From contig JAGNUJ010000003.1 in NCBI GenBank assembly GCA_017987055.1, positions 1-31,386 of the forward strand: 31,386 nt of DNA, written 5' to 3'. The position numbers and the translations under genes are program-made. Below the pieces are notes generated by a model that was not told where the DNA came from, did no database searches, and was given only the letters and a program-made list of their open reading frames with translations. This DNA comes from Giesbergeria sp. (GTDB taxonomy: Bacteria; Pseudomonadota; Gammaproteobacteria; Burkholderiales; Burkholderiaceae_C). Below are positions 1-17,946 of the stretch, piece after piece. Numbering within the stretch: the stretch's first letter is position 1; every line of letters starts with the position of its first letter.

Positions 1-1126
1 TAAACACTTCTTCCACCAGCAGCGGTGCCAAGCCCATCGACGGCTCGTCCAGCAGCAGCAGCTTGGGCCGGCCCATCAGCGCGCGGCCAATGGCCAGCAT
101 TTGCTGCTGGCCGCCCGAGAGCGTGCCAGCGGGCAAAGCGCGCTTTTCTTTCAGGATTGGGAACATGCCAAAGACTTTTTCCATGTCGCCTTCGACCTGG
201 GTTTTGGGCTGGGTGTAGGCCCCCAGGCGCAGGTTGTCTTCAATCGACAGCGGGCCAAACACTTGGCGGCCTTCCGGGCTTTGGCAAATACCGCTGCGCA
301 TGCGCAGGTCTGAGCGCAGTTTGCTGATGTCGGCGCCGTCAAAGTAAATGCGACCCGCACTCATCGGCTGTACGCCCGACAAGGTGCGCAAAAACGTCGT
401 TTTGCCCGCGCCGTTAGCACCGACCAGCGCCACGGTTTCGCCCCGGCGCACTTCCATGCTCAGGCCTTTGAGCGCTTGGATGCGGCCGTAATGGCTGTCC
501 ATGCCTTTGATGGCCAACAGCACATCGGCTTTGCTCGGCGCTTCGGGCTTGAGTTGGCCGGCGCTTTGGCTGCCCAAGCCGACCGACTCGGGCGCCAGCG
601 CGACGATGCGGTGGTACAGCTCGCGGTACTGCTCGGTGGCTTGCTGGCCAAACAACGGGTCGTCGTTGTCGGCAAAGGCTTTGTCGATGACGACCCAGTC
701 TTCGGCCAGCAGCACTTGGCGCGCCAGCGGCAGGATGTCGCGCTCTTCGGTGCGGATGTGCTCTTCGAGGTTTTTGGTGTAGCTGCGCAGTGCGGCGGTA
801 AATGCGCCGCAGTTGCCCTGCGCCGCACGCGCCAAGTCGTTGCGCAAGGCACGCAGCGTGGCCGGGCCGTGTTGGTGGTTGGCTTCGAGTTGGAGCAGCA
901 CCGCCTCGGCCTTGTCGCTGCGCTGGCGCAGCAGGCGAAACAAAAAGTCGTCTTCTTTTGGGTGGTGCGCGTGGTCAATAAAGCCTTCGATGTAATCAAA
1001 GACCGCATGGAAGAACGGCGTGGGCACTGGGCTTCCGGCGTCCATCTCGTCAGCGACGATGTTGATGGTGCTGGCTACGCGCCAAAGTTTGCGGTGCTCG
1101 TCTTGGATGATTTGGATTGCTTGCAT
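1..1126 (-). CDS. livF: Hemerythrin (HHE) domain fused to LivF-type ABC ATPase; 3' end beyond window
   Basis: ATPase subunit of a branched-chain-amino-acid-type (HAAT) importer with an extra N-terminal di-iron domain. Translated from the ATG at 1126, 375 codons are open without a stop and leave the window at position 1. Residues about 1-155 form an HHE hemerythrin domain: DEH at 9-11, HHPKE at 54-58 (HxxxE), His84 in NHQHG, and HIRTE at 123-127 (second HxxxE). A linker of about 45 residues (155-200) follows. Then comes a LivF ATPase: Walker A GANGAGKTT at 236-244, Q-loop CQSPEGR, signature LSGGQQQ from about 336, Walker B LLLLDEP at about 356. A GAGG-type ribosome site lies 5 nt before the ATG, and livG ends 9 nt upstream. 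LivF proteins are normally about 235 residues with no such extension. The fusion is read directly from one frame. A role in O2, NO or redox sensing is inference. Confidence 0.93.
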   Translation of the reverse strand, partial: MQAIQIIQDEHRKLWRVASTINIVADEMDAGSPVPTPFFHAVFDYIEGFIDHAHHPKEDDFLFRLLRQRSDKAEAVLLQLEANHQHGPATLRALRNDLARAAQGNCGAFTAALRSYTKNLEEHIRTEERDILPLARQVLLAEDWVVIDKAFADNDDPLFGQQATEQYRELYHRIVALAPESVGLGSQSAGQLKPEAPSKADVLLAIKGMDSHYGRIQALKGLSMEVRRGETVALVGANGAGKTTFLRTLSGVQPMSAGRIYFDGADISKLRSDLRMRSGICQSPEGRQVFGPLSIEDNLRLGAYTQPKTQVEGDMEKVFGMFPILKEKRALPAGTLSGGQQQMLAIGRALMGRPKLLLLDEPSMGLAPLLVEEVF

Positions 1127-1135: not shown

Positions 1136-1903
1136 TTACGCCTGCGTACCCAAATAGGCCGCGATCACATCGGGGTTTTTGCGCACTTCGGCGCCAGTGC
1201 CTTCGGTCAGTTTTTTGCCGTAGTCCAGCACCAAAATCCGGTCGGACAGGTTCATCACCATTTTCATGTCGTGCTCGACCAGCACCACGGTGACGCCCGA
1301 GTCGGCCACTTTGCGCACCAGCCTATCGACCTCAATGGTTTCGTTGGCGTTCAAACCGGCAGCTGGCTCGTCCAAGAAAATCAGGCGCGGCTTCATCGCC
1401 AGCGCGCGGGCGATTTCAAGGCGCTTCAAAGCGCCGTAGGGCATGCTGTCGGCGCGGGCTTGGACATAGTCTTTCAGGCCGACAAAGTCCATCAGCTCGG
1501 CCGCTTCGACGCGCAGCTGGGCATCGCGCTTGCGCAGCGAGGGCAGACGCAGCGCGGCTTTGAACAGGTTGCGGTCAAGGCGCAAATGCGCGCCGACCAT
1601 GACGTTCTCTAGCGCCGTCATGTTCATGCAGATTTGCAGGTTCTGAAAGGTGCGCGCCACACCGCGGGTGGCCAGCTCATTGGGCGATTTGCCACCGATG
1701 GACTCGCCATCGAGCTCAATCGTGCCGCTGGTGGGCTTGTACACCCCAGTGATGAGGTTAAACAGCGTGGTTTTGCCCGCGCCGTTGGGGCCAATCACCG
1801 CGTAAACAATGCCCGCTTCGATGCTGAAAGAGACGTTTTGCACGGCTTTGACACCGCCAAAGTGGATCGACAGGTCTGTGACGTTGAGCAGTGTCATGGT
1901 CAT
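1136..1903 (-). CDS. livG: HAAT-family ABC transporter ATP-binding protein LivG
   Basis: Second ATPase subunit of the importer (255 aa), expected on the cytoplasmic face of the LivH/LivM permease and pairing with the LivF-type subunit. Visible motifs: Walker A GPNGAGKTT at residues 38-46, Q-loop ARTFQNLQ, signature segment MPYGALKRLEIARAL (the YG form typical of LivG rather than LSGGQ), Walker B LIFLDEPAAGLN, and H-loop VEHDMKMVM. Length and the C-terminal NPDVIAAYLGT ending are normal for LivG. Its ATG overlaps the livM stop by 4 nt (ATGA), so translational coupling is likely. The substrate cannot be read from this subunit; the surrounding paa genes suggest an aromatic acid. Confidence 0.95.
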   Translation of the reverse strand: MTMTLLNVTDLSIHFGGVKAVQNVSFSIEAGIVYAVIGPNGAGKTTLFNLITGVYKPTSGTIELDGESIGGKSPNELATRGVARTFQNLQICMNMTALENVMVGAHLRLDRNLFKAALRLPSLRKRDAQLRVEAAELMDFVGLKDYVQARADSMPYGALKRLEIARALAMKPRLIFLDEPAAGLNANETIEVDRLVRKVADSGVTVVLVEHDMKMVMNLSDRILVLDYGKKLTEGTGAEVRKNPDVIAAYLGTQA

Positions 1904-2832
1904 TTCCCCCGCGCAAATTTGGCGGCCAAAGTGGGCACCAGCCCTTTGGGCATAAAGATCATGCAGGCCATCAAGATGGCACCGAAGGCGACGGTTTCCC
2001 AGCCTTCAAACGCCGTGAGCGCTTGTGGCAGCGCCGTCAGCAGCACCGCGCCAACCAGCGAGCCATAGACCGAAGCCATGCCGCCGACCACCACCATCGT
2101 CACCAACTCAATCGAGTGGAAGAAGTCCGCCAAGTTGGGCGTCACAAAGCCGACATAGTGGCCAGTGACGCTGCCCATGATGCTGGCAAAGCAGGCCGAC
2201 AGCACAAAGATGGCGACCTTGTAGCGCACCACGTCTACGCCCACGACTTGCGAGGCGACTTCGGAGCCGTGCAGGGCGCGCAGGGCGCGGCCAAACGGCG
2301 AGTCAATCATGTTGAGCGACGCCCAAACGCTGACGGACAGCAGCAACGCCACTACCCAGTACCAGTGCTTGTCGGTGCTCAAATCAAAGCCAAACAGGCC
2401 CATCGTTGGCACCGGCATACCGTCAGGGCCGCCGGTATAGGCGGCTTCGTTGCGCAAAGTGATGTTGATGATGATGCCCAGGCCCAGCGTGGCCATCGCC
2501 AAGTAGTGACCTTTGAGCTTAAAGATGGGGCGCGCCACCAAAGCCGCCAGCGCGCCAGCAATGGCCGCGCCCGCCGCCATAGCGAGCACCGGGTGCAAGC
2601 CAAAATGCGTCGGCAAAATCGCCGAGGCATAGGCACCGATGCCGATAAAGCCGGCGTGGCCCATGCTGATTTGGCCGGCAAAGCCGATCAGCAGGTTCAG
2701 GCCCAGCACGATCACTGCGTTGATCGCCATGCGGGTGGCCAGATCAAGGTAAAAATCGTTGGGGACGATAAACGGCAGCGCCACCAAGATGGCCATGGTC
2801 AGGTACAGACCGTAATAAGCGCTCTTTTTCAT
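1900..2832 (-). CDS. livM: HAAT-family ABC transporter permease LivM
   Basis: Inner-membrane permease of the branched-chain-type importer (310 aa). The protein is strongly hydrophobic with about eight to ten predicted membrane segments, starting with a segment at residues 7-24. It carries family hallmarks: GLNLLIGFAGQISMGHAGF near residues 44-62, the segment KGHYLAMATLGLG, and a C-terminal half with GGMASVYGSLVGA before the ending MPKGLVPTL. It starts 2 nt after livH and overlaps livG by 4 nt, so the permease and ATPase genes form one tight translational unit. It should heterodimerise with LivH and receive ligand from a periplasmic binding protein. The only one visible is encoded at 9572-10717 in the same run. 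Confidence 0.95.
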   Translation of the reverse strand: MKKSAYYGLYLTMAILVALPFIVPNDFYLDLATRMAINAVIVLGLNLLIGFAGQISMGHAGFIGIGAYASAILPTHFGLHPVLAMAAGAAIAGALAALVARPIFKLKGHYLAMATLGLGIIINITLRNEAAYTGGPDGMPVPTMGLFGFDLSTDKHWYWVVALLLSVSVWASLNMIDSPFGRALRALHGSEVASQVVGVDVVRYKVAIFVLSACFASIMGSVTGHYVGFVTPNLADFFHSIELVTMVVVGGMASVYGSLVGAVLLTALPQALTAFEGWETVAFGAILMACMIFMPKGLVPTLAAKFARGK

Positions 2833-2834: not shown

Positions 2835-3710
2835 TCAGACCCGATCAGTAGATTTGCCGCCAAACAATCCTTTTGGCTTGAAAAAGAGAATCAGCAGGAT
2901 GAGGACAAACGGAATGGCGTCTTTGTAGTTCGATGAGATGTAGCCTGCACCCATTGCTTCCAGTACACCGACCAGCAGGCCGCCCAGCACCGCGCCCAGG
3001 CCGTTACCGAGACCACCGACCACCGCCGCCACAAAGCCTTTCAGACCCAGCATGATGCCGACGTCATACGAAGTCAGCGTAATCGGCGTGACCAAAATGC
3101 CGCCCAACGCACCCAGTGCCGCTGCCATGACAAAGCTCATGAACAGCACCCAGCTGGTGTTGATGCCGACCAGCTCTGCGGCCAGTCGGTTGTACGAGGT
3201 GGCCAGCATGGCTTTGCCCTGCAAGGTGCGGGCAAAGAAGTACCACAGTGCGATCACCACCAGCGCCGTTACGCCCAGCACCCACAGGCTTTGCGGCAGC
3301 AAGATGGCACCAAACACTTCAATCGGTGTCTCGCCTGAAAACGCCGGCAGGCCAAAGGTGCCTTTACCCAGCCAGACCTGCACCAAGCCGCGAATCACCA
3401 GCGAGGCGCCAATGGTGATGATGATCAGCGTCACCGTCTCGGCACCGCGCACCGGCTCGATGGCGATTTTTTCAACCAGCACACCGACGACTGCCGGTAA
3501 CAAAATCGCCAGCAGCAGCACCACCGGCAGTGGCAAGCCCATGTGGGTGAAGAACACCGCCAACATGCCGCCCAACATGATGAACTCGCCTTGGGCGAAG
3601 TTGATGACGTTGCTGGCGTTGTAAATCAGCGTAAAACCCAGCCCGGCCAGCGCATAGGTTGCGCCGACGGTGAGACCAGAAAACAGAAATTGCAGCAGTT
3701 GCGCCATCAT
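2835..3710 (-). CDS. livH: HAAT-family ABC transporter permease LivH
   Basis: First membrane subunit of the importer (291 aa), with about eight hydrophobic segments. Family hallmarks are GLTVGATYALAGLGFTLIY near the N-terminus, VINFAQGEFIMLGG at about residues 36-49, and GGLGNGLGAVLGGLLVG in the C-terminal half, ending in FKPKGLFGG. Two adjacent ATG codons (3710 and 3707) could start it. A GAGGG ribosome site 8 nt upstream favours the first. The gene begins at the stop codon of a 19-residue leader ORF that has its own strong ribosome site. It lies 180 nt downstream of the regulator gene, the largest gap in the cluster, so a separate promoter for livHMGF is plausible. Confidence 0.94.
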   Translation of the reverse strand: MMAQLLQFLFSGLTVGATYALAGLGFTLIYNASNVINFAQGEFIMLGGMLAVFFTHMGLPLPVVLLLAILLPAVVGVLVEKIAIEPVRGAETVTLIIITIGASLVIRGLVQVWLGKGTFGLPAFSGETPIEVFGAILLPQSLWVLGVTALVVIALWYFFARTLQGKAMLATSYNRLAAELVGINTSWVLFMSFVMAAALGALGGILVTPITLTSYDVGIMLGLKGFVAAVVGGLGNGLGAVLGGLLVGVLEAMGAGYISSNYKDAIPFVLILLILFFKPKGLFGGKSTDRV

Positions 3711-3890: not shown

Positions 3891-4730
3891 TCAATCGTTG
3901 GCGACACAAACTTGTGTATCAGGTGCCGACTCGGGCAGCTGCTCACGCGTTGCACCCAAGCCCCACGACAGGGCTTCAGCGGCTTTTTTCAGCTCGGCAA
4001 TGATGGTGCTGCCCGGGCCCAAGTCACCGCTAATGCCATCGACACCGACGACGGAAATCGACATGGTGATCTGATTTTTGAAGTTGAATACGGGCGCTGC
4101 CACCGCATTGACACCCTCAAACAGATAGTGCTGCGACACTGGCGCTACGCCATCAGCACGGATTTGCGCCAGCAAGGTATCGACCTCGCCGCGTGTAGTC
4201 AGGGTGGGGTATTTGGTGCGCGCTTTGAGCTCTTTAGTGATTTGGGCTGCGGTTTGATTTTTGGGCAGCCAAGCGGCAAACACCCGGCCGCTGGCACTGG
4301 TGAGCAGCGGCAGCGAGATGCCGGTGACCACGTTGACAGTGATGGGCCGTTGCGGCCGCTCCCAGCGCACAATCACTGGTCCGTGGTCGCCCCAGACGGC
4401 CAGACCCACGGTTTCATTGATGCGGTCGCGCAGATCGGAAATGGCCGTCAGCCCTAGGCGCACGCGGTCGATGCGGTCGAGCGCTACCAAGCCAATGTCC
4501 AGTGCAAACGGCCCGAGCTTGTAGCGCGAGGTCAGCGGGTCTTGCTCAATCAAGCCGGTGCGAATCAGGCTGACCAAATAGCGGTGGGCTTTGGAGGGCG
4601 GCATCTCGGCCGCTGCGGCAACGTCTTTGAGTGTCATCAAACGCTGCTGGCCGCGCACCACTGCGCGCAGCACAGCGGCACCCACTTCGAAAGACTGCAC
4701 GCCGTGTTGAGCATCTTTTTCGTCGCTCAT
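3891..4730 (-). CDS. IclR-family transcriptional regulator
   Basis: DNA-binding regulator of 279 aa, normal for the IclR family. The N-terminal winged helix-turn-helix is visible at about residues 20-80 (VGAAVLRAVV, then LKDVAAAAEMPPSKAHRYL as the recognition segment, then wing residues SRYKLG). The C-terminal IclR ligand-binding domain includes VGLAVWGDHGPVIVRW, LTSASGRVFAAW and FEGVNAVAAPVFN. A ribosome site AAGGGG lies 5 nt before the ATG. The gene sits between paaE and livH on the same strand. Neighbouring palindromes at 3826-3851 suggest it controls the transporter genes and perhaps the whole cluster. Its ligand is unknown; phenylacetate or phenylacetyl-CoA are reasonable guesses. No PaaX- or TetR-type PaaR gene is visible in the window. 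Confidence 0.9.
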   Translation of the reverse strand: MSDEKDAQHGVQSFEVGAAVLRAVVRGQQRLMTLKDVAAAAEMPPSKAHRYLVSLIRTGLIEQDPLTSRYKLGPFALDIGLVALDRIDRVRLGLTAISDLRDRINETVGLAVWGDHGPVIVRWERPQRPITVNVVTGISLPLLTSASGRVFAAWLPKNQTAAQITKELKARTKYPTLTTRGEVDTLLAQIRADGVAPVSQHYLFEGVNAVAAPVFNFKNQITMSISVVGVDGISGDLGPGSTIIAELKKAAEALSWGLGATREQLPESAPDTQVCVAND

Positions 4731-4793: not shown

Positions 4794-4819
4794 CGCTGAT
4801 ACCGGCGAAGGGATCAGCG
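4794..4819 (-). repeat. 7-bp inverted repeat at the paaE stop
   Basis: A perfect stem CGCTGAT/ATCAGCG with a 12-nt loop overlaps the paaE stop codon. No U-run follows, so it is not an obvious terminator. It could be an RNA stability or processing element in the 83-nt gap before the regulator gene. Confidence 0.35.
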
Positions 4820-5902
4820 TTCGTCGAAGCTGACGACGACGTTTTCGCTGGTCGGGCGCGCCTGGCAGCTGAGCACAAAGCCCTGCTCCATCTCCCACGG
4901 CTCCAGTGTGTAGTTTTTCGCCATCGATACGGTGCCCGACATCACCTTGGCGCGGCAAGTGCAGCACACACCCCCACGGCAAGAAAATGGCAAATCAAGG
5001 CCAGCGTTGAGTGCCACATCCAAAATCACTTCGTTGCCACCCATTTGCAGTTGGTGCTCTTTGCCATCGACCACCACGGTGACGTTGGTCTGGCGGGCGA
5101 TGTTGATTTCGGGCTTTTCGCCGGCGGAAGAGGGGTTCTCCAGCGGCGTGGCCGAGATAAAGCGCTCCGAGTAAACGCGGCTGGCCGGCACGCCAGCGTC
5201 GATCAGCGTTTTTTCTGTGGCTTCAATCATGGCTTCAGGGCCGCAAACAAACACTTCGTCCATGCTGGCGACGGGCAAGAAGGCGGCAATGATGGCGCGC
5301 ACTTTGGCGGGGTCAACACGGCCTTCGAGCAATTCGGTTTCTTGCGCTTGGCTCGACAAGACGTGGATGAGCGTCAAGCGGTTGAGGTAGCGGTCTTTGA
5401 GGTTTTGCAGCGCCTCGTTGAACATCACGCTCGACATGCGGCGGTTGCCCAGCACCAGCGTGAATTTGGACTCTGGCTGCTCTTCCAGCGTGGTCGCCAA
5501 AATCGACAAAATCGGTGTAATGCCCGAGCCAGCGGCAAAACCGACGCGGTGGATGGCGCGCTGCTTGCGCACCGTAAAGCGCCCATCGGGCGGCAGCACG
5601 CTGAGCTTGTCGCCGACTTTGAGCTCGGTGGCCGCCCAGTTAGAAAACAGGCCGCCCAGCACCGGACGGATGCCGATTTCGAGCTCGCCTTTTTGCGTCA
5701 AGCGGCTGCGCGGGCTGCTAATGGAATAGCTGCGGCGCACTTCTTGGCCGTTGACGGTGGCGCGCAGCGTCAAAAACTGGCCCGGCTCAAAGCGGTAAAT
5801 CTCGCGCAGCGCGGGTGGAATATCCAGAGTCACCGCTACCGAGCCGCCCCCCTCGGTGTTGATGCGCTTGATGGTGAGCTCTTGAAAGCGGGGAGTAGAC
5901 AT
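4814..5902 (-). CDS. paaE: Phenylacetyl-CoA epoxidase reductase subunit PaaE
   Basis: NADPH-dependent flavin/iron-sulfur reductase (362 aa) that passes electrons to the PaaAC oxygenase core. The N-terminal FAD domain has RRSYSISS near residue 57. The NAD(P) domain has FAAGSGITPILSI and VFVCGPEAMI. The C-terminal plant-type 2Fe-2S ferredoxin domain has Cys308, Cys313, Cys316 (CxxxxCxxC) and Cys346. The frame is open upstream to 6058 inside paaD, but the start at 5902 (MSTPRF) is chosen because it begins the family's N-terminus and follows a GGAAG site. It lies 46 nt after paaD, in the usual paaABCDE order. Normal length and intact ligands suggest a working enzyme. Confidence 0.96.
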   Translation of the reverse strand: MSTPRFQELTIKRINTEGGGSVAVTLDIPPALREIYRFEPGQFLTLRATVNGQEVRRSYSISSPRSRLTQKGELEIGIRPVLGGLFSNWAATELKVGDKLSVLPPDGRFTVRKQRAIHRVGFAAGSGITPILSILATTLEEQPESKFTLVLGNRRMSSVMFNEALQNLKDRYLNRLTLIHVLSSQAQETELLEGRVDPAKVRAIIAAFLPVASMDEVFVCGPEAMIEATEKTLIDAGVPASRVYSERFISATPLENPSSAGEKPEINIARQTNVTVVVDGKEHQLQMGGNEVILDVALNAGLDLPFSCRGGVCCTCRAKVMSGTVSMAKNYTLEPWEMEQGFVLSCQARPTSENVVVSFDER

Positions 5903-5948
5903 AGGGTGATCTTCCGGTAATAACGACAAAAGGGGCAGGGCTAATGGC

Positions 5949-6518
5949 TTAGTACGGCTTGAAGTAATCAAATGGCTCAAAGCAGTCCAAGCACTTGTAG
6001 AGAGCTTTGCAGGCGGTGGAGCCGAAATGTGAGATTTCGGTGGTATTTTCAGAGTCACATTGCGGGCAAACGACCGTCTGGCGTGCGCTAGTAGCTATAT
6101 TTTTAGGAGCAAAATGCACTATGTTATGGCCGCAGGCGCTGTCGCCGGTGCCGACGGGTGGCGGGGCAATGCCGTATGCGCGCAGTTTTTCGCGGCCTTC
6201 GGGCGTCATCCACTCGGTGGACCACGCCGGTGCCAATTGGGTCACCACGCGCGCTGCCAAGCCAGCGCCGAGCAGCGCCGCGTGTATGTCATCGGCCATT
6301 TGCTCCATAGCTGGGCAGCCGCTGTAGGTGGGCGTAATCACCACCTCTAGCTGGCCGTCCGCTGCTTGGCGCACCGCTCGCAAAACACCCATTTCGCGCA
6401 GCGACACCACCGGAATTTCCGGATCGGTCACCGCTTCGAGCAGCGTCCACACCGCGTGGTGTGCATCGGTGGCCTGTTTGGCCGCAATCGGGCCGTTGGG
6501 CAATGGGGTATTGGGCAT
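5949..6518 (-). CDS. paaD: PaaD, MIP18/DUF59-type maturation factor of the epoxidase
   Basis: Cytosolic iron-sulfur/metal-centre maturation protein (189 aa) needed for phenylacetyl-CoA epoxidase activity. The N-terminal DUF59 domain contains VTDPEIPVVSLREMGV (about residues 31-46) and the SGCPAM cysteine motif. The C-terminal zinc-ribbon-like part has CPQC at 151-154 and CKALYKCLDC ending at Cys179, then FDYFKP. The linker between the two parts is longer than in the PaaD proteins I know. It includes about nine residues (137-145, APKNIATSA) encoded by a copy of the dispersed AGCTAT-type repeat, inserted without breaking the frame. It starts 6 nt after the paaC stop with only a weak ribosome site. 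Confidence 0.94.
   Translation of the reverse strand: MPNTPLPNGPIAAKQATDAHHAVWTLLEAVTDPEIPVVSLREMGVLRAVRQAADGQLEVVITPTYSGCPAMEQMADDIHAALLGAGLAARVVTQLAPAWSTEWMTPEGREKLRAYGIAPPPVGTGDSACGHNIVHFAPKNIATSARQTVVCPQCDSENTTEISHFGSTACKALYKCLDCFEPFDYFKPY
6085..6111 (+). repeat. Dispersed GCGCTAG-AGCTAT repeat copy inside paaD
   Basis: GCGCTAGTAGCTATATTTTT matches, with small differences, the intergenic copies at 19521 and 23186. It lies within the paaD linker region and is translated in frame on the minus strand. Confidence 0.6.
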
Positions 6519-6524: not shown

Positions 6525-7310
6525 TTACCAGACAGCTTCAGGGTGGGCGCGTGCCAAGCTTTGCATTTCACTCAATACAAAGTCCAAGTGCTCAGAGTGC
6601 ACGCCGTGCTTGCCGGTGGTGACGTAGCCGCCAGCGGCGGGGCGCTGCAAGGTGGCTTCGGCCAAGGCTTCGTTCAGCATGGTGTCAAAGTCGCCCTGCA
6701 AGGCGCGCACGTCAAAGCCGACTCCGGCCGCAGCCGCTGCAGCTTCCATATCGCTGTGCGTCCAGAACTCTTGCACAAACGGCATGAAGTGGTTCAGTGC
6801 GCGCTGCGCCCGCTCGTGCGATTCGGCGGTGCCGTCGCCCATGCGCACCAGCCAGTCGCGCGAGTGGCGCAGGTGGTACAGCGCCTCCTTGAACGACTTG
6901 GCCGCGATAGCGGCCAGCTGTGCGTCTTTGGACGATTGCAGCTTGCTCCACAGCGGCACCATCAGCGCGCTGTAGAGAAAGTTGCGCACGATGGTGGCGG
7001 CGTAGTCGCGGTCAGCGGCGGCGGTCGGCACCAAGCCGCTGTTGTGCGGCAGTTCCAGCAGCGTGTAGTTGCGAAACTCTGGCGCATCGCGAAAGTACGC
7101 CAGCGAGTCTTCGGTGCTGCCGTCGTTCTTCAGCGTGGCGACATGCTCGTACAACATGCGCGCTTGACCGATCAGGTCCAAGCTCATGTTGGCCAGCGCC
7201 AAGTCTTCTTCCAAGATCGGGCCGTGACCGCACCACTCGGCATTGCGCTGACCCAAGATCAGTGCGTTGTCTGCCAAGTGCAGCAGGTAGTCGAGGTGTT
7301 GCTGAGCCAT
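6525..7310 (-). CDS. paaC: Phenylacetyl-CoA epoxidase subunit PaaC
   Basis: Ferritin-like structural partner of PaaA in the ring 1,2-epoxidase (261 aa). Recognisable segments are the N-terminal YLLHLADNALILGQRNAEWCG, then LANMSLDLIGQARMLYEH, and the central YHLRHSRDWLVRMGDGT. The family keeps the four-helix di-iron fold but is not the catalytic subunit. The start codon overlaps the last base of the paaB stop (TAATG), indicating coupled translation. Length is within the family range, and nothing looks damaged. Confidence 0.96.
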   Translation of the reverse strand: MAQQHLDYLLHLADNALILGQRNAEWCGHGPILEEDLALANMSLDLIGQARMLYEHVATLKNDGSTEDSLAYFRDAPEFRNYTLLELPHNSGLVPTAAADRDYAATIVRNFLYSALMVPLWSKLQSSKDAQLAAIAAKSFKEALYHLRHSRDWLVRMGDGTAESHERAQRALNHFMPFVQEFWTHSDMEAAAAAAGVGFDVRALQGDFDTMLNEALAEATLQRPAAGGYVTTGKHGVHSEHLDFVLSEMQSLARAHPEAVW

Positions 7311-7630
7311 TACATGTACCCCACTTCCTCAGGGATTTGATAGAAGGTCGGGTGGCGGTAAATCTTGTCAGCCGCTGGCTCAAAAAAGGCTTCTTTGTCT
7401 TCGGGCGCGCTGGCGGTGATCTGCGCCGAAGGCAGCACCCAGATGCTGACGCCTTCTTGGCGGCGTGTGTACACGTCGCGCGCCATGGTCAGCGCTTGCT
7501 GGGCGTCAGCAGCGTGCAGGCTGCCGCAGTGCTTGTGCTCCAAGCCTTGCTTGCTGCGGACAAAAACTTCCCACAACGGCCATTCTTTCAGGGCTGCGGG
7601 CGTGGGGGTAGCGGTGGCGGTCGTGTTCAT
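7310..7630 (-). CDS. paaB: Phenylacetyl-CoA epoxidase subunit PaaB
   Basis: Small bridging subunit of the PaaABCE complex (106 aa). The core [20 protein letters not shown] followed by [20 protein letters not shown] and VWVLPS-like (IWVLPSAQI) segments is typical. The ATG at 7630 is preferred over an upstream open frame because it overlaps the paaA stop by 4 nt (ATGA) and gives the usual family length. The alanine/threonine-rich N-terminal ten residues are variable in the family. Confidence 0.95.
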
Positions 7631-8640
7631 GCTGCTTCCTTCAATGCTTTGGTCTGCTGTTTGCGGGCATAGGCTTGGGCGGCGTCGCGCACCCATTGGC
7701 CGTCGTTGTGGGCTTTGACGCGGGTGGCAAGGCGCTCTTTATTGCACGGGCCATTGCCGTTCACGGTTTCCCAGAACTCGTTCCAGTCGATGGCACCGTA
7801 GTCGTAGTGCTTGCGCTCTTCGTTCCATTTCAGGTCCGGGTCGGGCAGCGTCACACCCAGCACCTTGGCTTGCGGCACGGTGGCATCGATAAACTTTTGG
7901 CGCAGGTCGTCGTTGGAGATGCGCTTGATACCCCAGCGCATGCCTTGGGCGCTGTGCGGGCTGTCGGCGTCTGGCGGTCCAAACATCGCCAAGCACTTCC
8001 ACCACCAGCGGTTGACCGAGTCTTGCACCATGTCTTTTTGGGCTTGGGTGCCCTTCATCATGGTCAGCAGCGCTTCGTAGCCTTGGCGCTGGTGGAAGGA
8101 CTCTTCCTTGCACACGCGCACCATGGCACGGGCGTAAGGGCCGTAGCTGCAACGGCACAGCGGAATCTGGTTGCTAATCGCCGCGCCATCAACCAGCCAG
8201 CCAATCGTGCCCACGTCGGCCCAGTTCAGGGTCGGGTAGTTGAAGATTGAGCTGTACTTGGCACGGCCCGAGTGCAGGCCGTCCAGCATCTCGTCGCGGC
8301 TGGTGCCGAGGGTTTCCGCAGCGCTGTACAGGTACAGGCCGTGTCCGCCTTCGTCTTGCACCTTGGCAATCAGAATGGCTTTGCGCTTCAAGCTGGGCGC
8401 GCGGCTGATCCAGTTGCCTTCGGGCAGCATGCCAACGATTTCGCTGTGGGCGTGCTGGCTGATTTGGCGCACCAGCGTTTTGCGGTAGGCATCGGGCATC
8501 CAGTCTTGCGGCTCGATCTTGCCGTCGGCATCGATTTTGGCGTCAAAACGGGCTTGTGCTTCTGGGTTGTCCGACACCGATACTGTGGAAACTGGCTTCA
8601 GTCCAGCTTCGTTTTGCACGTTAAATGATTGCGTATACAT
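7627..8640 (-). CDS. paaA: Phenylacetyl-CoA epoxidase catalytic subunit PaaA
   Basis: Di-iron monooxygenase subunit (337 aa) that epoxidises the ring of phenylacetyl-CoA using O2. Metal ligands fit the family: Glu67 in HSEIVG, Glu97 and His100 in DEGGH (ExxH), and Glu180 and His183 in EESFH (second ExxH). The surrounding segments [18 protein letters not shown] and [13 protein letters not shown] are strongly conserved in PaaA. An AGGAGA ribosome site precedes the ATG. Upstream lie 86 nt containing two small hairpins, then the enoyl-CoA hydratase gene. The protein is complete and appears functional. Confidence 0.97.
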
Positions 8641-8726: not shown

Positions 8727-9518
8727 TTACGGTAGCCAGGGCGCCGGACGTTTATCAAGAAAGGCACCAATGCCTCCCTTGGCTTCTTCTGTGGTGCGTT
8801 GGCGCGCGATGCGCTGCGCCGTTTCTTCCAGTACCGACGCATCGATCGGGCGCTCGCGCATGGCTTCAATCAGGTCTTTGGCCGCTTTTTGCGCTTGTGG
8901 CGCACCCAGCCGCAGTTCTTTGACCAAGGCTGCAATACGCTCGTCGAGCTGCTCGGCGGGCACCACTTCATTGACCAAACCGATCAGCAGGGCGCGCTCG
9001 GCAGCAATGCGTTCGGCACTTTGGAAGTAGCGCAAGGCGTGGCGCGGTCCAATGGCGCGCAGCACATACGGGCTGATCACCGAAGGAATAATGCCAAAGC
9101 GCACTTCCGAGGTGGCAAACACCGCATCGGTGGTGGCCACTGCCATATCGCAAGCCGCCGCCAGACCAGTGCCACCGCCCAACGCCAAGCCCTGCACCCG
9201 CGCAATGGTGGGTTTGGACAGGTTCGAGAGCAGGTGCAGCATCTGGGCAAACAGGCGCGCATCTTTGAGGTTGTCCTCTTGGCTGCTGACAGAAGCGCGG
9301 CGCATCCAGTTCAAGTCAGCACCGGCAGAAAAATGCCGTCCACGTCCGGCCAAGACCACTACGCGCACTGCAGGGTCGCTATCGAGGGCGCTGCAGGCCG
9401 CGCTCAAATCGGCAATCAACTCCTCGTTAAAGGCGTTGAACACCTCTGGACGGTTCATCCAGATGGTGGCCATCGACCCGTTGATTTCAACTTCTAAAGT
9501 GGCGTAACTGGTTGTCAT
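8727..9518 (-). CDS. Enoyl-CoA hydratase/isomerase family protein (PaaF position, LiuC-like sequence)
   Basis: Crotonase-fold enzyme of 263 aa. Oxyanion-hole segments are visible as HFSAGADLNWMRR (about residues 62-74) and VQGLALGGGTGLAAACD. In the paa pathway a hydratase (PaaF) is required for 2,3-dehydroadipyl-CoA, and this is the only unassigned crotonase in the cluster. However, the ADLNWM motif and the C-terminal pattern (RPIDASVLEETAQRIARQR, then GIGAFLDKR) resemble methylglutaconyl-CoA hydratases (LiuC/AtuE). The pathway role is therefore inferred from position. The ATG at 9518 is chosen; a TTG two codons upstream (9524) is in frame but less likely. It lies 53 nt after the binding-protein gene. 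Confidence 0.85.
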   Translation of the reverse strand: MTTSYATLEVEINGSMATIWMNRPEVFNAFNEELIADLSAACSALDSDPAVRVVVLAGRGRHFSAGADLNWMRRASVSSQEDNLKDARLFAQMLHLLSNLSKPTIARVQGLALGGGTGLAAACDMAVATTDAVFATSEVRFGIIPSVISPYVLRAIGPRHALRYFQSAERIAAERALLIGLVNEVVPAEQLDERIAALVKELRLGAPQAQKAAKDLIEAMRERPIDASVLEETAQRIARQRTTEEAKGGIGAFLDKRPAPWLP

Positions 9519-9571
9519 GGTCAAAACGTCTCAGGCAATAACTGCAAGGTCAATTCAGAGAAAACGCCGCC

Positions 9572-10717
9572 TTAAGGGGCGAGAGTCCAGTCGCCGTTTT
9601 TGATTTCCAGCATGCGGAAGGCGCTCAAATCCAAGCCCATGTGGTCGGTGGCCGACATGTTGACCACGCCGCCGGTGCCGACATAGCCCTTGGTGGCTTC
9701 GATGGCGTCACGTACCTTGGCTTTGTCGGTGCCGCCAGCGCGCTTGATGGCTTCGACCGCAATCATCAAACCGTCGTAGGCGTGGCCACCGAAGGTAGAG
9801 ATGTCGCTATTCCACTTGGCGGTGTAGGCCTTGGTGTAGGCCACCGATACGGGCTTTTGCACGTCGTTGTCGGGCAACTTGTCAGCCACCAGCAACGCGG
9901 CAGCTGGCAAGCGCACGCCATCGGCCGCAGGGCCAGCCAGCTTGATGAATTCTTCCGAACCTACGCCGTGGGCGTGGTACAGCGGCAAGTTGATGCCCAA
10001 CTGCTTGTAGTTCTTGGTAGCAATAGCTGGGCCTTGGCCCAGACCGAAAATGAATACGGCTTGCACGCCGGGGGTGTTTTTGATCTTGGTGAGCTGGGGG
10101 CTCATGTCGGTGTCTTTGGGACCGTAGGTTTCGTTGGCAACTAGCGTGATGCCGTATTTGGCGGCAACGCTTTCAGTTTCTTTTTTGCCCGACTGGCCAA
10201 AACCGCTGGTCTCCGAGAACAACGCCACCTTGGTGAGGTTGCGCTTGCGCATGTCTTCAAACACTTTTTCAGCGGCCATGCGGTCGGTGTGCGGTGTCTT
10301 GAAAACAAACTTCTTCACGGGTTCGACCACTACCACGGCACCGGCCAGCGAGATGAAGGGCACCCCGGCTTTTTCTACCAAAGGAACAATTGACATGGTC
10401 GAGCCCGTGGTCGTGCCACCCACCAACACGTCCACTTTGTCGCTCTCGATCAAGCGCTTGGCAAAGCCGTTGGCCTTGCTGGCATCGCTGCCGTCGTCGT
10501 AGTGCACCAATTCGAGCGGACGACCAAGCACGCCGCCGTCCTTGTTGATTTTTTCCACATAGAGCTGCATGGTTTTCAGCTCAGGGTCGCCCAAGAAAGC
10601 GGCGGGGCCGGTGACGGACAGAATGGAGCCGATTTTGATCGGATCAGCGGCATAGGCGTTGAGGGCGCCAAACGCCAAAGCGGCGCAGGAAATGAGTTTT
10701 TTAACGGGGAAGTTCAT
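9572..10717 (-). CDS. Periplasmic LivK-type substrate-binding protein
   Basis: Type I periplasmic binding protein of the HAAT importer family (381 aa). A Sec signal peptide is clear: KK at residues 6-7, a hydrophobic core, and cleavage predicted after AYA at about residue 23. The mature part begins ADPIKIGSILSVTGPAAFLG, the usual family opening, and includes LVGGTTTGSTMSIVPL and GGHAYDGLMIAVEAI. It is set between paaJ and the hydratase gene, well away from its likely partners livHMGF but in the same co-directional run. This suggests the importer brings in phenylacetate or a related aromatic acid. A strong CTAGGAGA site precedes the ATG. Substrate specificity is inference; binding residues were not modelled. 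Confidence 0.93.
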   Translation of the reverse strand: MNFPVKKLISCAALAFGALNAYAADPIKIGSILSVTGPAAFLGDPELKTMQLYVEKINKDGGVLGRPLELVHYDDGSDASKANGFAKRLIESDKVDVLVGGTTTGSTMSIVPLVEKAGVPFISLAGAVVVVEPVKKFVFKTPHTDRMAAEKVFEDMRKRNLTKVALFSETSGFGQSGKKETESVAAKYGITLVANETYGPKDTDMSPQLTKIKNTPGVQAVFIFGLGQGPAIATKNYKQLGINLPLYHAHGVGSEEFIKLAGPAADGVRLPAAALLVADKLPDNDVQKPVSVAYTKAYTAKWNSDISTFGGHAYDGLMIAVEAIKRAGGTDKAKVRDAIEATKGYVGTGGVVNMSATDHMGLDLSAFRMLEIKNGDWTLAP

Positions 10718-10758: not shown

Positions 10759-11970
10759 TTAAATACGTTCAATGATTAAGGCAATGCCCTGGCCAACGCC
10801 AATGCACATGGTGCACAAGGCGTAGCGGCCACCACGGCGCGCTAGCTCGTAGCTGGCAGTGGTCACCAAACGCGCGCCACTCATGCCCAGCGGATGGCCG
10901 ATGGCAATCGCGCCGCCGTTGGGATTGACTCTTTCTTCGTTGTCTGCGAGTTTCAAATCCCGCAGCACGGCCAGCCCTTGCGCGGCAAAGGCTTCGTTCA
11001 GTTCGATCACATCCATCTGGTCTAGCGTCAGGCCAGCCTTGGCCAGCACTTTGCGCACGGCCGGTGCTGGGCCAAAACCCATGATGCGTGGCAACACCCC
11101 CGCCGTGGCCATCGCCACCACCCGCGCCCGAGGTGTCAGGCCGTGGGCTTTGACACCGGCCGCCGAGGCCAGCAGCAAAGCGCAAGCGCCGTCGTTGACG
11201 CCCGAAGCGTTGCCTGCCGTCACTGTCAAATCGGCACCGTTGACGCCTTTGAGCTTGGCTAGCATCTCCAGCGTGGTCTCCGGGCGTGGATGCTCGTCGG
11301 TGTCAAAGACGATGGGGTCGCCTTTTTTGCGTGGCACCAGCACCGGCACCAACTCATCGGCAAAACGCCCAGCCGCGTGGGCTGCGGCCCAGCGCTGCTG
11401 CGAGCGCAGCGCAAACGCGTCTTGGTCGGCGCGCGAGACACTGAACTCTTGCGCCACGTTGTCCGCTGTTTGCGGCATCGAGTGGGTTTCGTAGACCTTC
11501 TTCATCAACGGGTTGATAAAGCGCCAGCCAATGGTGGTGTCGTACATGGTGGCGCTGCGCGCGAACGCGCTCTCGGCCTTGCCCATGACAAATGGCGCGC
11601 GTGACATGCTCTCGACACCGCCAGCAATCATCAAATCGGTGTCACCCGACTTGATGGAGCGCGCAGCCAGACCAATCGCATCCATGCCCGAGCCGCACAG
11701 GCGGTTTACGGTGGTGCCGGGTACTTCGACCGGCAAACCAGCCAGTAAGCCAGACATGCGGGCGACGTTGCGGTTGTCTTCACCGGCTTGGTTGGCGCAG
11801 CCGTAAATGATGTCTTCCACCGCCGCCCAGTCCACTTGGGGGTTGCGCTCCATCAAGGCCTTGAGTGGCACCGCGCCCAAGTCGTCGGGACGCACGCTGG
11901 CGAGCGTTCCGCCGTAGCGGCCAATCGGGGTGCGAATAGCGTCGCAGATAAATGCTTCGGTCATGGTCAT
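10759..11970 (-). CDS. paaJ: 3-oxoadipyl-CoA/3-oxo-5,6-dehydrosuberyl-CoA thiolase
   Basis: Thiolase (403 aa) that cleaves 3-oxoadipyl-CoA and the C8 intermediate of the phenylacetate route, releasing acetyl-CoA. The acylated cysteine is Cys92 in NRLCGSGMD. The catalytic His359 is in GHPLG, and Cys389 is in TMCIGVGQG, the ending typical of PcaF/PaaJ. The opening EAFICDAIRTPIGRYGG also matches that subfamily. A PcaF role in the beta-ketoadipate pathway cannot be excluded by sequence, but the location between paaK and other paa genes supports PaaJ. It starts 21 nt after paaK. Confidence 0.95.
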   Translation of the reverse strand: MTMTEAFICDAIRTPIGRYGGTLASVRPDDLGAVPLKALMERNPQVDWAAVEDIIYGCANQAGEDNRNVARMSGLLAGLPVEVPGTTVNRLCGSGMDAIGLAARSIKSGDTDLMIAGGVESMSRAPFVMGKAESAFARSATMYDTTIGWRFINPLMKKVYETHSMPQTADNVAQEFSVSRADQDAFALRSQQRWAAAHAAGRFADELVPVLVPRKKGDPIVFDTDEHPRPETTLEMLAKLKGVNGADLTVTAGNASGVNDGACALLLASAAGVKAHGLTPRARVVAMATAGVLPRIMGFGPAPAVRKVLAKAGLTLDQMDVIELNEAFAAQGLAVLRDLKLADNEERVNPNGGAIAIGHPLGMSGARLVTTASYELARRGGRYALCTMCIGVGQGIALIIERI

Positions 11971-11991: not shown

Positions 11992-13317
11992 TTAGTTTTG
12001 TTTTGGACGGTGGTCAAACACGCGGCGGGCTTTGCCCACTTCGGTGCGCGGCAAGGTCTCAAACAGCATCACATTGACGCGGGTGGACACGCCAACGTTG
12101 GTCTTGATGCGGTGCTGCAACTCTTTGCTGATGTTGCTGCGGTCGGCATCGCTCAAACCGAAAGACAGCTCGCGCGTCACTTCGCAGCAGACTTCGATGT
12201 TGTCCAGGTGGCCATCGCGGTTCAGGATGATTTGGTAGGTACCGGCCAAACGCTTATCGCGCAGAATTTGCTCTTCAATTTGCGACGGGAACACGTTCAC
12301 GCCGCGAATAATCAGCATGTCGTCCGAGCGGCCGGTAATTTTGTCCATGCGGCGGAACGAGCGCGAAGTCGGTGCCAGCAGGCGTGTCAGGTCGCGGGTG
12401 CGGTAGCGAATGACCGGGAAAGCTTCCTTGGTCAACGAGGTGAACACCAGTTCGCCTTCGGATCCGTCGGGCAGCACTTCGCCGGTTTCGGGGTCGATGA
12501 TTTCTGGGTAGAAATGGTCTTCCCAAATCACTGGGCCGTCTTTGGTTTCAATGCACTCGCACGCCACGCCGGGGCCCATGACTTCGGTCAGGCCGTAGAT
12601 GTCGATGGCGTCCAGACCCAAATCGCGCTCAATCTCAGCGCGCATACCTTCGCCCCACGGCTCGGCACCAAAAATGCCGACCTTGAGCGAAATTTCTTCC
12701 GGTGGAATGCCCCGGCGCTGGAATTCTTCGGCAATCACCAGCGAGTACGACGGCGTAACCATGATGATTTCGGGCTGGAAGTCGATGATTTGCTGCACTT
12801 GCTTTTCGGTCTGACCACCCGACATCGGCACCACGATGCAACCCGCGCGCTCAGCGCCGTAATGCGCGCCCAAGCCGCCAGTAAACATGCCGTAGCCATA
12901 AGCGTTGTGTAGCATGTCGCCGGGGCGGCCACCGGCCGCACGAATCGAACGCGCCACCAAGTTGGCCCAGTGGTCGATGTCGTTGGCGGTGTAGCCGACG
13001 ACGATGGATTTGCCAGTGGTGCCCGACGAAGCGTGCAGGCGCGAGAGTTTTTGGCGCGGCACCGCAAACAGGCCAAACGGATAGTGATCGCGCAAATCCG
13101 TTTTGGTCATGAACGGAAACTTGGCCAAGTCGGCCAGCGTTTTCAGATCGTCCGGGTGTACACCTTTATCGTCAAAGGCCTTTTTGTGGTGTGGCACGTT
13201 GTCATAAGCGTGCTTGAGCGACCACTTCAGGCGCTCCAGTTGCAGCGCGGAAATTTCGTCGCGGCTGGCTTTTTCAATCGGCTCTAAGTCTTCCGGCAGG
13301 GATTTTTTGACGGTCAT
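11992..13317 (-). CDS. paaK: Phenylacetate-CoA ligase PaaK
   Basis: Cytosolic AMP-forming ligase (441 aa) making phenylacetyl-CoA, the first committed step. The ATP-binding P-loop SSGTTGK lies at residues 97-103. Other conserved segments are GYGMFTGGLGAHYGAE, FGAEPWGEGMR, DIYGLTEVMGPG, and the C-terminal ITGRSDDMLIIRGVNVFPSQIE. Length and motifs are normal. An AGGAG site lies 6 nt before the ATG. It follows paaI after 43 nt. Its product feeds PaaABCE encoded further along the same transcript. Confidence 0.97.
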   Translation of the reverse strand: MTVKKSLPEDLEPIEKASRDEISALQLERLKWSLKHAYDNVPHHKKAFDDKGVHPDDLKTLADLAKFPFMTKTDLRDHYPFGLFAVPRQKLSRLHASSGTTGKSIVVGYTANDIDHWANLVARSIRAAGGRPGDMLHNAYGYGMFTGGLGAHYGAERAGCIVVPMSGGQTEKQVQQIIDFQPEIIMVTPSYSLVIAEEFQRRGIPPEEISLKVGIFGAEPWGEGMRAEIERDLGLDAIDIYGLTEVMGPGVACECIETKDGPVIWEDHFYPEIIDPETGEVLPDGSEGELVFTSLTKEAFPVIRYRTRDLTRLLAPTSRSFRRMDKITGRSDDMLIIRGVNVFPSQIEEQILRDKRLAGTYQIILNRDGHLDNIEVCCEVTRELSFGLSDADRSNISKELQHRIKTNVGVSTRVNVMLFETLPRTEVGKARRVFDHRPKQN

Positions 13318-13360: not shown

Positions 13361-13831
13361 TTACTTTTGCTGAGCGGCTTGTGCCAGCCCCGCAATCACT
13401 TCGCCTTGAATGCGGTATGACTTGCCCCGAAACAGTGCCACCACCTTGCCAGCTTGCGTGCGCACGGTGATGTCGTAGACCCCGGTGCGACCGGCTTGCG
13501 AGCGCTCGACAGCTTCGGCGTGCAGTACATCGCCTTCTTTTGCCGGTGCCAAAAAGTCGATGTTGCAGCCCGAGGCCACGGTGTTTTTGTTGTAGCTGTT
13601 GCAGGCGTAGGCAAAAGCGGTGTCGGCCAGCGAAAAAATCATGCCGCCGTGGCAAATGTGGTGGCCATTGACCATGTCGGCGCGCACGGTCATGGTCAAG
13701 TGCGCCGTGCCCGGCGCGACGCTGACGATGGCCATGCCCAGCGCCTGCGCTGCGTTATCGCGCGCCCACATGGCGTCGGCAGCAGCTTGCGCCAGCGCTT
13801 GGGCGGCTTCGGGGGTGAGGGCTTCAGTCAT
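13361..13831 (-). CDS. paaI: Phenylacetate-pathway hotdog thioesterase PaaI
   Basis: Acyl-CoA thioesterase (156 aa) that hydrolyses stalled phenylacetyl-CoA derivatives and frees CoA. The hotdog-fold core is visible: GHHICHGGMIFSLADTAFAY with the catalytic Asp in LADTAF, then ASGCNIDFLAPAKEGDVL. The ATG at 13831 (MTEALTPEAAQ) is preferred. It has a GGAAAG site 7 nt upstream and overlaps paaH by 8 nt. An in-frame TTG at 13849 would add six residues but lacks such a site. Confidence 0.94.
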   Translation of the reverse strand: MTEALTPEAAQALAQAAADAMWARDNAAQALGMAIVSVAPGTAHLTMTVRADMVNGHHICHGGMIFSLADTAFAYACNSYNKNTVASGCNIDFLAPAKEGDVLHAEAVERSQAGRTGVYDITVRTQAGKVVALFRGKSYRIQGEVIAGLAQAAQQK

Positions 13832-15356
13832 ACAAAGGCTTTCCGGCAAAAATATGGCGTTGGATGAGCGGTGAAATGCGGTAACGGTCTTCGCCGTAGC
13901 TGGTGCCGAGGTGGGCCAGCACGTCGCGCACAGTGCTTAAGCCAATGTGCTCGGCCCAAGCCAGCGGGCCTTGTGGATAGTTCACGCCCAAGCGCATCGC
14001 GGAATCGGCGGCGGTGACGGAGCAGACGCCTTGGTTCACGGCATCAGCGGCTTCGTTGGCCAGCATGGCCACGGTGCGCATCACGGCCAAACCGGGGATG
14101 TCGGCCAGTGGCGAGACTTTGAAGCCCGCTGCTTGCAACAAACCGACCGCTGCATCGACAGCCTTCGGTGCGCAACCAGCGGCGCTGGCCAGCGCCATGC
14201 GCGTGGCTTTGCTGTAGTCCAGCGCCAAGTCGATCAAAACGGTATTGGCGGTGCCCGACTCGTAAGCGCGCTGCGTAGCGCTGCGGCCATCGGTGACAAA
14301 CAACACGGCATCGTCGGCCTGCGCAATGCGGCCATCGGCCGAAGGGCTGCGGCTAAAGCCGACGCCAGCGGCGCTCAGTCGCTCGGCCAATGCTTTAGCG
14401 GCAGCCGATTCACCGCAAACGGTGATGGCGGCCGGCTGCGCGCAAGCGGCAGCCGTGGCCGGCGCAGGCATTTCAGCCCCGGCGCGGTAATCGTAAAAAC
14501 CACGGCCGGATTTTTTGCCGAAGAAACCGGCATCCACCAGCTCTTGCTGAATCAGCGACGGCAGAAAACGCGGGTCGTTGAAAAACGCATTCCACACCGA
14601 GCGCGTAACGGCAAAGTTGACATCGTGGCCAATCAAATCCATCAGCTCAAACGGGCCCATGCGAAAGCCACCGGCTTCGCGCATCACGGCGTCCAGCGTG
14701 GCGCAATCGGCTGCGCCCTCGCCCAGCAAGCGCAGGCCTTCGGCGTAATAAGGCCGGGCGACGCGGTTGACGATGAAACCGGGTGTCGATTTGGCGTGTA
14801 CCGGAACTTTGCCCCACGCGGTGGCGGTGGCAAACAGGGTGTCAGCGACAGCGCGGTCGGTGGCCAGACCCGAGACCACTTCCACCAACGCCATCAACGG
14901 CGCGGGGTTGAAAAAGTGCAGGCCCGCCAAGCGCTCAGGGTGCTTGAGCGCCGCGCTGATGGCCGTGACGGAAATTGACGAAGTGTTGGTGCCAAAAATG
15001 CAGTCGGCAGCGACGATGGTTTCTAGCTCGGCGTACAACCCTTGTTTGGCGGGCAGGCTTTCGACAATCGCCTCCACCACCAAGCCGGCATCGGCCAAAT
15101 CGGCCAATTTTTCTGCCGCTTGCAGGCGGGCGCCAGCTGCTTGCGCGGCCTCGGCGGTCAGCTTGCCTTTGGCGGCTAGCTTGTCAAATTGGGCGCGCAG
15201 ACCGGCAATGGCTTGGGCAGCGGCGTCGGCGCGGGTGTCAAACAGCTTGACGGGGTGGCCAGCGGCAGCAGCGACTTGGGCAATGCCGGCGCCCATCGCG
15301 CCAGCGCCAATCACGCCGACGACGGTTTGCGGGGACAAGGGTTGTGTACTCGCCAT
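13824..15356 (-). CDS. paaH: 3-hydroxyadipyl-CoA dehydrogenase PaaH
   Basis: NAD-dependent 3-hydroxyacyl-CoA dehydrogenase (510 aa) acting before the PaaJ thiolase. The Rossmann motif GAGAMG is at residues 17-22. The catalytic-region segment LHFFNPAPLMALVEVV is clear. The first C-terminal dehydrogenase domain includes GFIVNRVARPYYAEGLRLL and GPFELMDLIGHDVNF. A second copy follows near the end (AAVGLLQAAGFKV, then GVNYPQGPLAWAE). This duplicated C-terminal domain and length of about 500 residues are typical of PaaH/PaaC-type enzymes. A GGAGAG site precedes the ATG. It starts 5 nt after paaG. Confidence 0.96.
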   Translation of the reverse strand: MASTQPLSPQTVVGVIGAGAMGAGIAQVAAAAGHPVKLFDTRADAAAQAIAGLRAQFDKLAAKGKLTAEAAQAAGARLQAAEKLADLADAGLVVEAIVESLPAKQGLYAELETIVAADCIFGTNTSSISVTAISAALKHPERLAGLHFFNPAPLMALVEVVSGLATDRAVADTLFATATAWGKVPVHAKSTPGFIVNRVARPYYAEGLRLLGEGAADCATLDAVMREAGGFRMGPFELMDLIGHDVNFAVTRSVWNAFFNDPRFLPSLIQQELVDAGFFGKKSGRGFYDYRAGAEMPAPATAAACAQPAAITVCGESAAAKALAERLSAAGVGFSRSPSADGRIAQADDAVLFVTDGRSATQRAYESGTANTVLIDLALDYSKATRMALASAAGCAPKAVDAAVGLLQAAGFKVSPLADIPGLAVMRTVAMLANEAADAVNQGVCSVTAADSAMRLGVNYPQGPLAWAEHIGLSTVRDVLAHLGTSYGEDRYRISPLIQRHIFAGKPLYD

Positions 15357-16159: not shown

Positions 16160-16171
16160 GGCGGGCAATCC

Positions 16172-17839: not shown

Positions 17840-17912
17840 CAATACTTCCTTGGCAAGGCGTTGATCGGATACCACTGGCAGCGCTGTTTTTCGAGCGCCA
17901 CGGGTGCGATAC

Positions 17913-17946
17913 AAAAAAAGAGGAGAGACGTACCAGAGCACGTCTC
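17913..17946 (-). promoter_or_regulatory. Palindrome plus U7 in the paaN leader: attenuator, terminator or operator
   Basis: On the transcribed strand a perfect 7-bp inverted repeat GAGACGT-N8-ACGTCTC (17925-17946) is followed, after five bases, by seven U (17919-17913). The shape fits an intrinsic terminator. It might end transcripts arriving from the channel gene at 18108, act as an attenuator just after the candidate paa start site, or be a repressor operator. The sequence alone does not decide. Confidence 0.5.

Follow-up and report, generated by a model that had tools for sequence, protein, structure and literature searches.

Hemerythrin-like domains often serve as sensors of O2 or of redox conditions. 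The sensors DcrH, Bhr-DGC and Bhr-HD-GYP each join a hemerythrin-type domain to an output domain, and the two cyclic di-GMP (c-di-GMP) enzymes among them, a hemerythrin-fused cyclase and a phosphodiesterase, follow redox state and are more active when reduced (PMC9388753). The P1B-5 ATPases, membrane transport ATPases with a hemerythrin-like domain, constitute a second comparable case in the same text (PMC9388753). Furthermore, stand-alone hemerythrin genes of COG3945 are found in ben and box clusters with a benzoate ATP-binding cassette (ABC) transporter, their role being called unclear (PMC6449761). Here, we describe a fusion between an extended hemerythrin-like (HHE) domain and a LivF-type ABC importer ATPase, encoded at the start of contig JAGNUJ010000003.1 of Giesbergeria sp. 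(assembly GCA_017987055.1); the window, i.e., the whole stretch of DNA that was analysed, comprises positions 1 to 31,386 of this contig (31,386 nucleotides). Control domains of this type, fused to other proteins, are known, as is one class of metal pump with a fused hemerythrin; no description of such a fusion on an ABC importer was found in the literature searched.

The DcrH and Bhr sensors carry the motif H-HxxxE-HxxxH-HxxxxD, in contrast to H-HxxxE-H-HxxxE in the present fusion, whose output is an importer ATPase under predicted control. The P1B-5 ATPases are P-type metal transporters with a C-terminal domain and the motif H-HxxxE-HxE-HxxxxD (PMC9388753), whereas this is an ABC importer, predicted to act on an aromatic acid. 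The COG3945 genes display the same kind of motif in benzoate clusters; they are separate genes, members of a putative counterpart of the present family, and no fusion is mentioned in the portion of the article available (PMC6449761). The fold and motifs of the nucleotide-binding domain (NBD) are shared with LivF and branched-chain-type ABC ATPases (PRK11614, 1ji0), from which the fusion differs by the extra N-terminal HHE domain and a substrate that is probably an aromatic acid. In the open-access literature searched, no hemerythrin domain on an ABC transporter was found, although the supplementary architecture figure of PMC4919030 may tabulate the bare arrangement.

The fusion frame occupies 2..1126 of the minus strand (375 codons) and runs off the contig start, as window position 1 is the first base of the contig. 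Near-identical complete relatives are 435 residues long, and the last ~60 residues of the ATPase, which fall beyond the contig, are supplied by one of them, P0002 (435 residues), a match to the whole query at 100% (rounded). The initial annotation had read a complete HHE ligand set and a LivF-type ATPase in one frame and had proposed a search for PF01814 and ABC_tran, and the Pfam profile search bears it out: PF01814 Hemerythrin matches residues 3-135 (E 8.9e-15, 55.7 bits, cut-off 25.3) and PF00005 ABC_tran residues 219-363, above cut-off (E 1.9e-29). The ATPase part (residues 202-375; 2..523, minus strand) is an ABC_tran domain with Walker A, Q-loop, LSGGQ signature and Walker B, its C-terminus off the contig; for the NCBIfam LivF equivalog NF008626 (cut-off 441 bits), this truncated sequence scores 187 bits. 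The HHE domain extends over residues 1-186 (569..1126, minus strand). The ~45-residue linker proposed earlier had to be shortened: residues 136-186 are mostly the tail of an extended family of ~190 residues, because stand-alone hemerythrin-like proteins align across them to about residue 186, most of those at 37-44% identity covering 94-99% of a 192-residue query. The linker proper comprises ~15 residues (187-201; 524..568, minus strand), being the conservation minimum of the fusion protein alignment (0.60-0.63 vs 0.75 and 0.88-0.91), and the predicted local distance difference test (pLDDT) score falls below 50 over 176-198 in the full-length model. In that model the predicted template modelling score (pTM) is 0.61 and the other four models have mean pLDDT 61-66, the relative placement of the domains not being fixed. 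Full-length fold searches were filled by NBD matches; hence the HHE part was folded alone, and its AlphaFold2 (AF2) model is a four-helix bundle with pLDDT 86.3.

The six predicted metal ligands lie exactly where the initial annotation had placed them, all on the minus strand: His11 (1094..1096), His54 (965..967), Glu58 (953..955), His84 (875..877), His123 (758..760) and Glu127 (746..748). Ligands were counted in the 304 fusion proteins of 380-470 residues, others being excluded. His54, His84, His123 and Glu127 are found in 304/304 (Tyr replaces His84 in L134-L136), His11 in 303/304 with a gap in 1, and Glu58 in 303/304 (Thr in L134-L136), the full set being retained in 302/304. The ligands are likewise retained in all 48 other domains compared, three long-branch rows (L140-L142) having been excluded from this residue comparison. 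In sequence and AF2 model, the domain is thus of PF01814 type, i.e., a four-helix bundle with H-HxxxE-H-HxxxE ligands. The canonical O2-carrying motif H-HxxxE-HxxxH-HxxxxD is absent: Pro88, and no His, stands at +4 from His84, and His123 has Glu at +4 and +5, the canonical Asp at +5 being absent. FBXL5, YtfE and Rv2633c-type proteins share the fold and the ligand order; none of them is known to belong to a transporter.

Truncation of the frame at the contig end, in a genome bin that is 61% complete, would favour an assembly artefact or a chance join of two genes. This explanation is already refuted and its probability is negligible, as the same fusion occurs elsewhere. In the full-length search, both Pfam domains are present in 120/120 of the best protein matches listed (8000 were scored, mostly unlisted), and a second search, which took the HHE part of a distantly related member as query and which 665 proteins passed, gave both domains in 120/120 of those listed. 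From a genome scan, the best 80 of 254 relatives were kept, and the frame is unbroken from HHE through Walker A in all 80 of these loci of other genomes (73 full length, 5 truncated at the edge of a contig, and 2 short, L027 and L071); a sequencing error joining two genes, which the initial annotation had named as a possible refutation, is thereby excluded. Fusion-bearing isolates include Dechloromonas agitata, Dechloromonas denitrificans ATCC BAA-841 (L022), Azonexus hydrophilus, Simplicispira psychrophila (DSM 11588, L009) and Malikia granosa. The protein database already displays both domains side by side, and the named complete proteins are called ABC ATP-binding proteins.

The fusion is embedded in a conserved importer and, commonly, in a paa setting. 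LivG, LivH and LivM are present at >70% identity in 78, 75 and 77 of the 80 loci, respectively. Strict paa markers (PaaA-E, K or Z, at least 55% identity) occur in 51/80 loci and in 34 of the 43 loci of at least 18 kb; adding PaaX, FAD (flavin adenine dinucleotide) hydroxylase, metallo-hydrolase and indolepyruvate oxidoreductase genes raised these figures to 63/80 and 39/43. The 17 loci without any strict or added marker are shorter than 18 kb in 13 cases, but not in L025, L029, L040 and L044. Beyond the order, class- and phylum-level searches gave a match in 72/369 and 52/398 genomes, and 12 places were fetched: L131-L136, from six more genomes, are fusions, L137, L138 and L140-L142 are stand-alone, and L139 gave no match. 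L143 and L145 came from the order search, Azospirillum lipoferum (L089) has an N-terminal fusion, and L144, a wrongly placed stretch, was dropped before the counts. Longest-ORF (open reading frame) gene calling is unreliable in GC-rich DNA; codon-usage calling was used instead, yet it misses or extends genes.

Other ARRANGEMENTS were sought in 399 genomes of the order, giving 62 genomes with relatives at 88 places, 10 of them N-terminal fusions by score and frame length. Forty of the other 78 places were fetched, these being the best-scoring except one at a contig edge (G364). The domain stands directly behind livF on the same strand, or is fused to it, in 7/40: as a separate gene in L093, L095, L126, L128 and L129, and as a C-terminal LivF-HHE fusion, both domains over cut-off, in L116 and L123. 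These seven are not independent, since L126, L128 and L129 are closely related, and likewise L093 and L095. About 0.13 direct livF neighbours were expected, a rough estimate and not a shuffled control, based on 457 LivF-like genes (E 1e-30 or better) in 33 genomes (~139 Mb) with one gene per kb assumed. A same-strand livF lies within 6 kb in 11/40 places, or 13 if weak ABC matches in L104 and L124 are included. The domain family is therefore coupled to LivF in three arrangements. A candidate LivM-HHE fusion in L094 (505-residue ORF) was rejected, because livM read in a shifted frame accounts for the first part of that ORF, and the HHE gene has a start of its own behind livM.

In a tree of 83 domains (83 of 84 intended rows entered), a branch with support 82/81 separates the 32 N-fusions, together with five long-branch stand-alone rows (L140-L142, P0287, P0290), from 46 other domains, both C-fusions among them; this topology makes a single origin of the N-fusion no more than possible. 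The C-fusion of L123 groups with the separate gene of L090 (support 99/97). Because domain order differs as well as tree placement, the N- and C-terminal fusions are separate events.

The livF-linked relatives accompany several aromatic pathways. On an Azospirillum oryzae plasmid (L090), LivKHMGF is followed by a hemerythrin gene and preceded upstream by annotated 3-hydroxybenzoate 6-monooxygenase, cupin protein, fumarylacetoacetate hydrolase family protein and maleylacetoacetate isomerase genes, a setting that reads as the gentisate pathway. Protocatechuate 4,5-dioxygenase-type genes lie within ~10 kb in L123, L093 and L095, with LigA over cut-off in L146 and the extradiol beta subunit over cut-off in L149 and L150. 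L128 and its relatives, seen in representatives only, adjoin meta-cleavage genes: a bphD-like hydrolase (below the model cut-off), oxovalerate aldolase and acetaldehyde dehydrogenase. The link that the initial annotation had drawn is not specific to PaaABCE, as PaaA was not seen in several fusion genomes and these other pathways display the same coupling.

Two further observations concern the pathways near the fusion gene. Relatives of a 342-residue protein (L018:5159-6187, plus strand) with two ExxH motifs and weak AurF similarity (PF11583, E 2.4e-4, below cut-off) are present in 27/80 fusion loci, accompanied by a Fer2/FAD/NAD reductase in 26/27 and paaZ in 22/27; among these 27, PaaA was seen in L012 alone, truncated at the end of the locus. 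The AurF-like protein was found in 14 of 21 genomes tested (G111 and G1115 among them being apparently identical), 10 of these 14 show no PaaA, and it is a candidate diiron oxygenase replacing PaaABCE; no report linking AurF with phenylacetyl-CoA was found in the open-access literature searched. An FAD hydroxylase of PRK08132 type occurs near the fusion gene in 23/80 loci, often with a metallo-hydrolase and DUF2783 (clusters 11, 12 and 14; e.g., L011, L037, L047), perhaps marking a hydroxyphenylacetate branch.

Among the remaining relatives, L092 and L115 adjoin boxA and boxB, and the surroundings of other stand-alone sites are mixed or unread. In L120, a gene for benzoate-CoA ligase, the HHE gene and a LivKHMGF set follow one another within a benzoate cluster, which the presence of 3,4-dehydroadipyl-CoA semialdehyde dehydrogenase marks as box type. 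One conserved neighbourhood is common to six of the 40 sites (L096, L098, L101, L102, L107, L117), which contains the cbb3 oxidase genes ccoP (L096) and ccoG (L102). An O2/redox link is made more likely by these ring-cleavage clusters and cbb3 genes. For Accumulibacter, one study places a hemerythrin gene, of possible kinship to the present family, alongside the cco operon among clusters controlled by FNR and assigns it to oxygen detection (PMC6446978).

The domain behaves as an optional module, because orthologous importers without it exist even within the same genus. With LivH as clade marker, 12 genomes have LivH at 67% identity or higher, 9 with fused LivF (some by frame length only) and 3 unfused (L151, L152, L153), the latter with paa genes. 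The unfused LivF of L151 is 84% identical to that of P0002, and G184, a genome of the genus of L151, has a match of fusion length. In 9 fetched importers of the 14 with LivH at 58-66% identity, the domain was found in none; in L154 and L156 the frame ahead of LivF is longer, but this extra part has no match in the present data.

In the window, the fusion gene and the genes up to the PaaZ-like gene all lie on the minus strand, and livG, livM and livH stand upstream of the fusion gene with gaps or overlaps of a few bases. These ORFs encode a LivG-type ATPase with an ABC match and no extra domain (1136..1903), a LivM-type permease matching an annotated branched-chain permease of A. oryzae (1900..2832) and a LivH-type permease (2835..3710), in the same order as in relatives. 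An IclR-type regulator (3891..4730) was named by reading, with no NCBIfam match at 1e-30. The genes paaA-E and paaK occur in one stretch, confirming the paa-linked setting claimed for the fusion: PaaD (5949..6518, TIGR02159), PaaC (6525..7310, TIGR02158), PaaB (7310..7696, TIGR02157 at residues 39-126, the true start probably lying downstream of the ORF start), PaaA (7627..8640, TIGR02156) and the phenylacetate-CoA ligase PaaK (11992..13317, TIGR02155) exceed their cut-offs, and PaaE (4814..5908, TIGR02160) lies below, with 396.1 bits against 420.8. The remaining genes encode an enoyl-CoA hydratase family protein (8727..9524), a LivK-type periplasmic binding protein matching an annotated substrate-binding protein of A. 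oryzae (9572..10717), 3-oxoadipyl-CoA thiolase (PaaJ/PcaF; 10759..11970, TIGR02430), a 4HBT thioesterase, PaaI by position (13361..13849, PF03061), a 3-hydroxyacyl-CoA dehydrogenase, PaaH by position (13824..15356, PF02737, PF00725), an enoyl-CoA hydratase (15362..16168, PF00378) and an aldehyde dehydrogenase, PaaZ/PaaN-like by position (16172..17941, PF00171). FNR-like palindromes (TTGATNNNNATCAA, at most 2 mismatches) number 14 on both strands of the window against 5.9 expected, a count reached in 0/100 shuffles, and are mostly intragenic.

We give even chances to the reading in which the frame encodes the LivF subunit of a LivKHMGF importer for phenylacetate or a close relative, with an N-terminal diiron domain acting as a redox- or O2-responsive regulator; the imported substrate is probably phenylacetate. 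The broader proposal, in which such a domain recurs as an O2/redox control module in ABC importers of aromatic acids and has been attached in three or more ways (N-fusion, C-fusion, separate gene behind livF), is advanced tentatively, at somewhat less than even chances. A regulator is suggested because the domain is optional, is joined to the motor in several ways, accompanies mostly O2-dependent aromatic pathways and nearly always keeps its ligands, and also because relatives travel with a low-O2 oxidase. In such a mechanism, the HHE site would hold two irons, its redox or O2-bound state would alter the working of the attached ATPase, and uptake of an acid whose breakdown needs O2 would follow the O2 or redox state of the cell; we favour a version in which reduction of the site, i.e., lack of O2, dampens uptake, this sign being a guess. 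With LivG free of any extra domain, each transporter would have a single HHE domain on its LivF/LivG motor. The N-terminal join lies ~10 residues before Tyr213, which presumably corresponds to the tyrosine that stacks on adenine in ABC ATPases, and the HHE domain could from there reach the nucleotide edge.

Several results weigh against such gating. Reversible O2 binding should not be assumed, because HxxxH and HxxxxD of O2-carrying hemerythrins are missing from a ligand set that resembles YtfE and FBXL5. In one genus, the three genomes seen (L134:8578-9942, L135:7664-9028, L136:8261-9625) have lost two of six ligands (E58T and H84Y) and kept the fusion, so the metal site appears broken there. 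No FNR-like site, with up to 2 mismatches, lies between livH and the IclR gene, and 29/40 stand-alone-type sites are without a same-strand livF within 6 kb of the fetched stretch. In L116, molybdenum-hydroxylase-type and benzoyl-CoA-reductase/dehydratase-activase-type genes (the latter below benzoyl-CoA reductase cut-offs) lie 6-17 kb away, perhaps an anaerobic setting, which would oppose a simple need for O2 there. Nitrate respiration or denitrification was rejected as a correlate, as its markers fail to separate 15 fused from 17 unfused genomes: narG occurs in 9/15 vs 11/17, the cytochrome d1 family, whose profile also catches paralogues, in 12/15 vs 8/17, and either in 15/15 vs 13/17. The unfused state was seen in fetched DNA for 12/17, and for G157, G179, G342, G355 and G368 it rests on the lack of a fusion-like match.

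Three other roles were considered. The bundle might be a tethered catalytic or scavenging module, removing peroxide, O2 or nitric oxide (NO) or storing O2 or iron locally at the importer without control of the ATPase. Its fold matches an iron-bound homologue of Rv2633c, which reportedly has catalase activity, and many relatives are separate proteins; however, several forms of fusion or adjacency to the motor subunit would be left unexplained, and one domain per transporter would offer a small capacity, making this protective role unlikely. A structural or assembly role, in which the bundle aids subunit folding or docking and the metal site is secondary, draws support from the ligand loss in L134-L136, which may equally be a secondary loss; we regard it as distinctly unlikely, given ligand retention in nearly all other fusions and in all other domains compared, and the existence of close importers without the domain (L151). 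An iron-supply sensor, folded only at plentiful iron and limiting import of a substrate degraded by iron enzymes, would fit the resemblance of ligand order and fold to FBXL5; yet the partner pathways share O2 use more clearly than a special iron need, and the fusion persists in the genus with lost ligands, such that this reading is improbable.

If the domain does gate uptake through O2 or redox state, these would be, as far as is known, the first ABC importers gated by oxygen or redox via an attached metal site, and nutrient import would be tied directly to its co-substrate O2, without transcription. The family offers a natural test set of orthologous importers, in which the domain may be present, absent, attached to the opposite terminus, encoded by its own gene or damaged at the metal site, and because this set exists the gating question is directly testable. 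Furthermore, gating could give the unexplained hemerythrin genes of the box and ben clusters a possible function.
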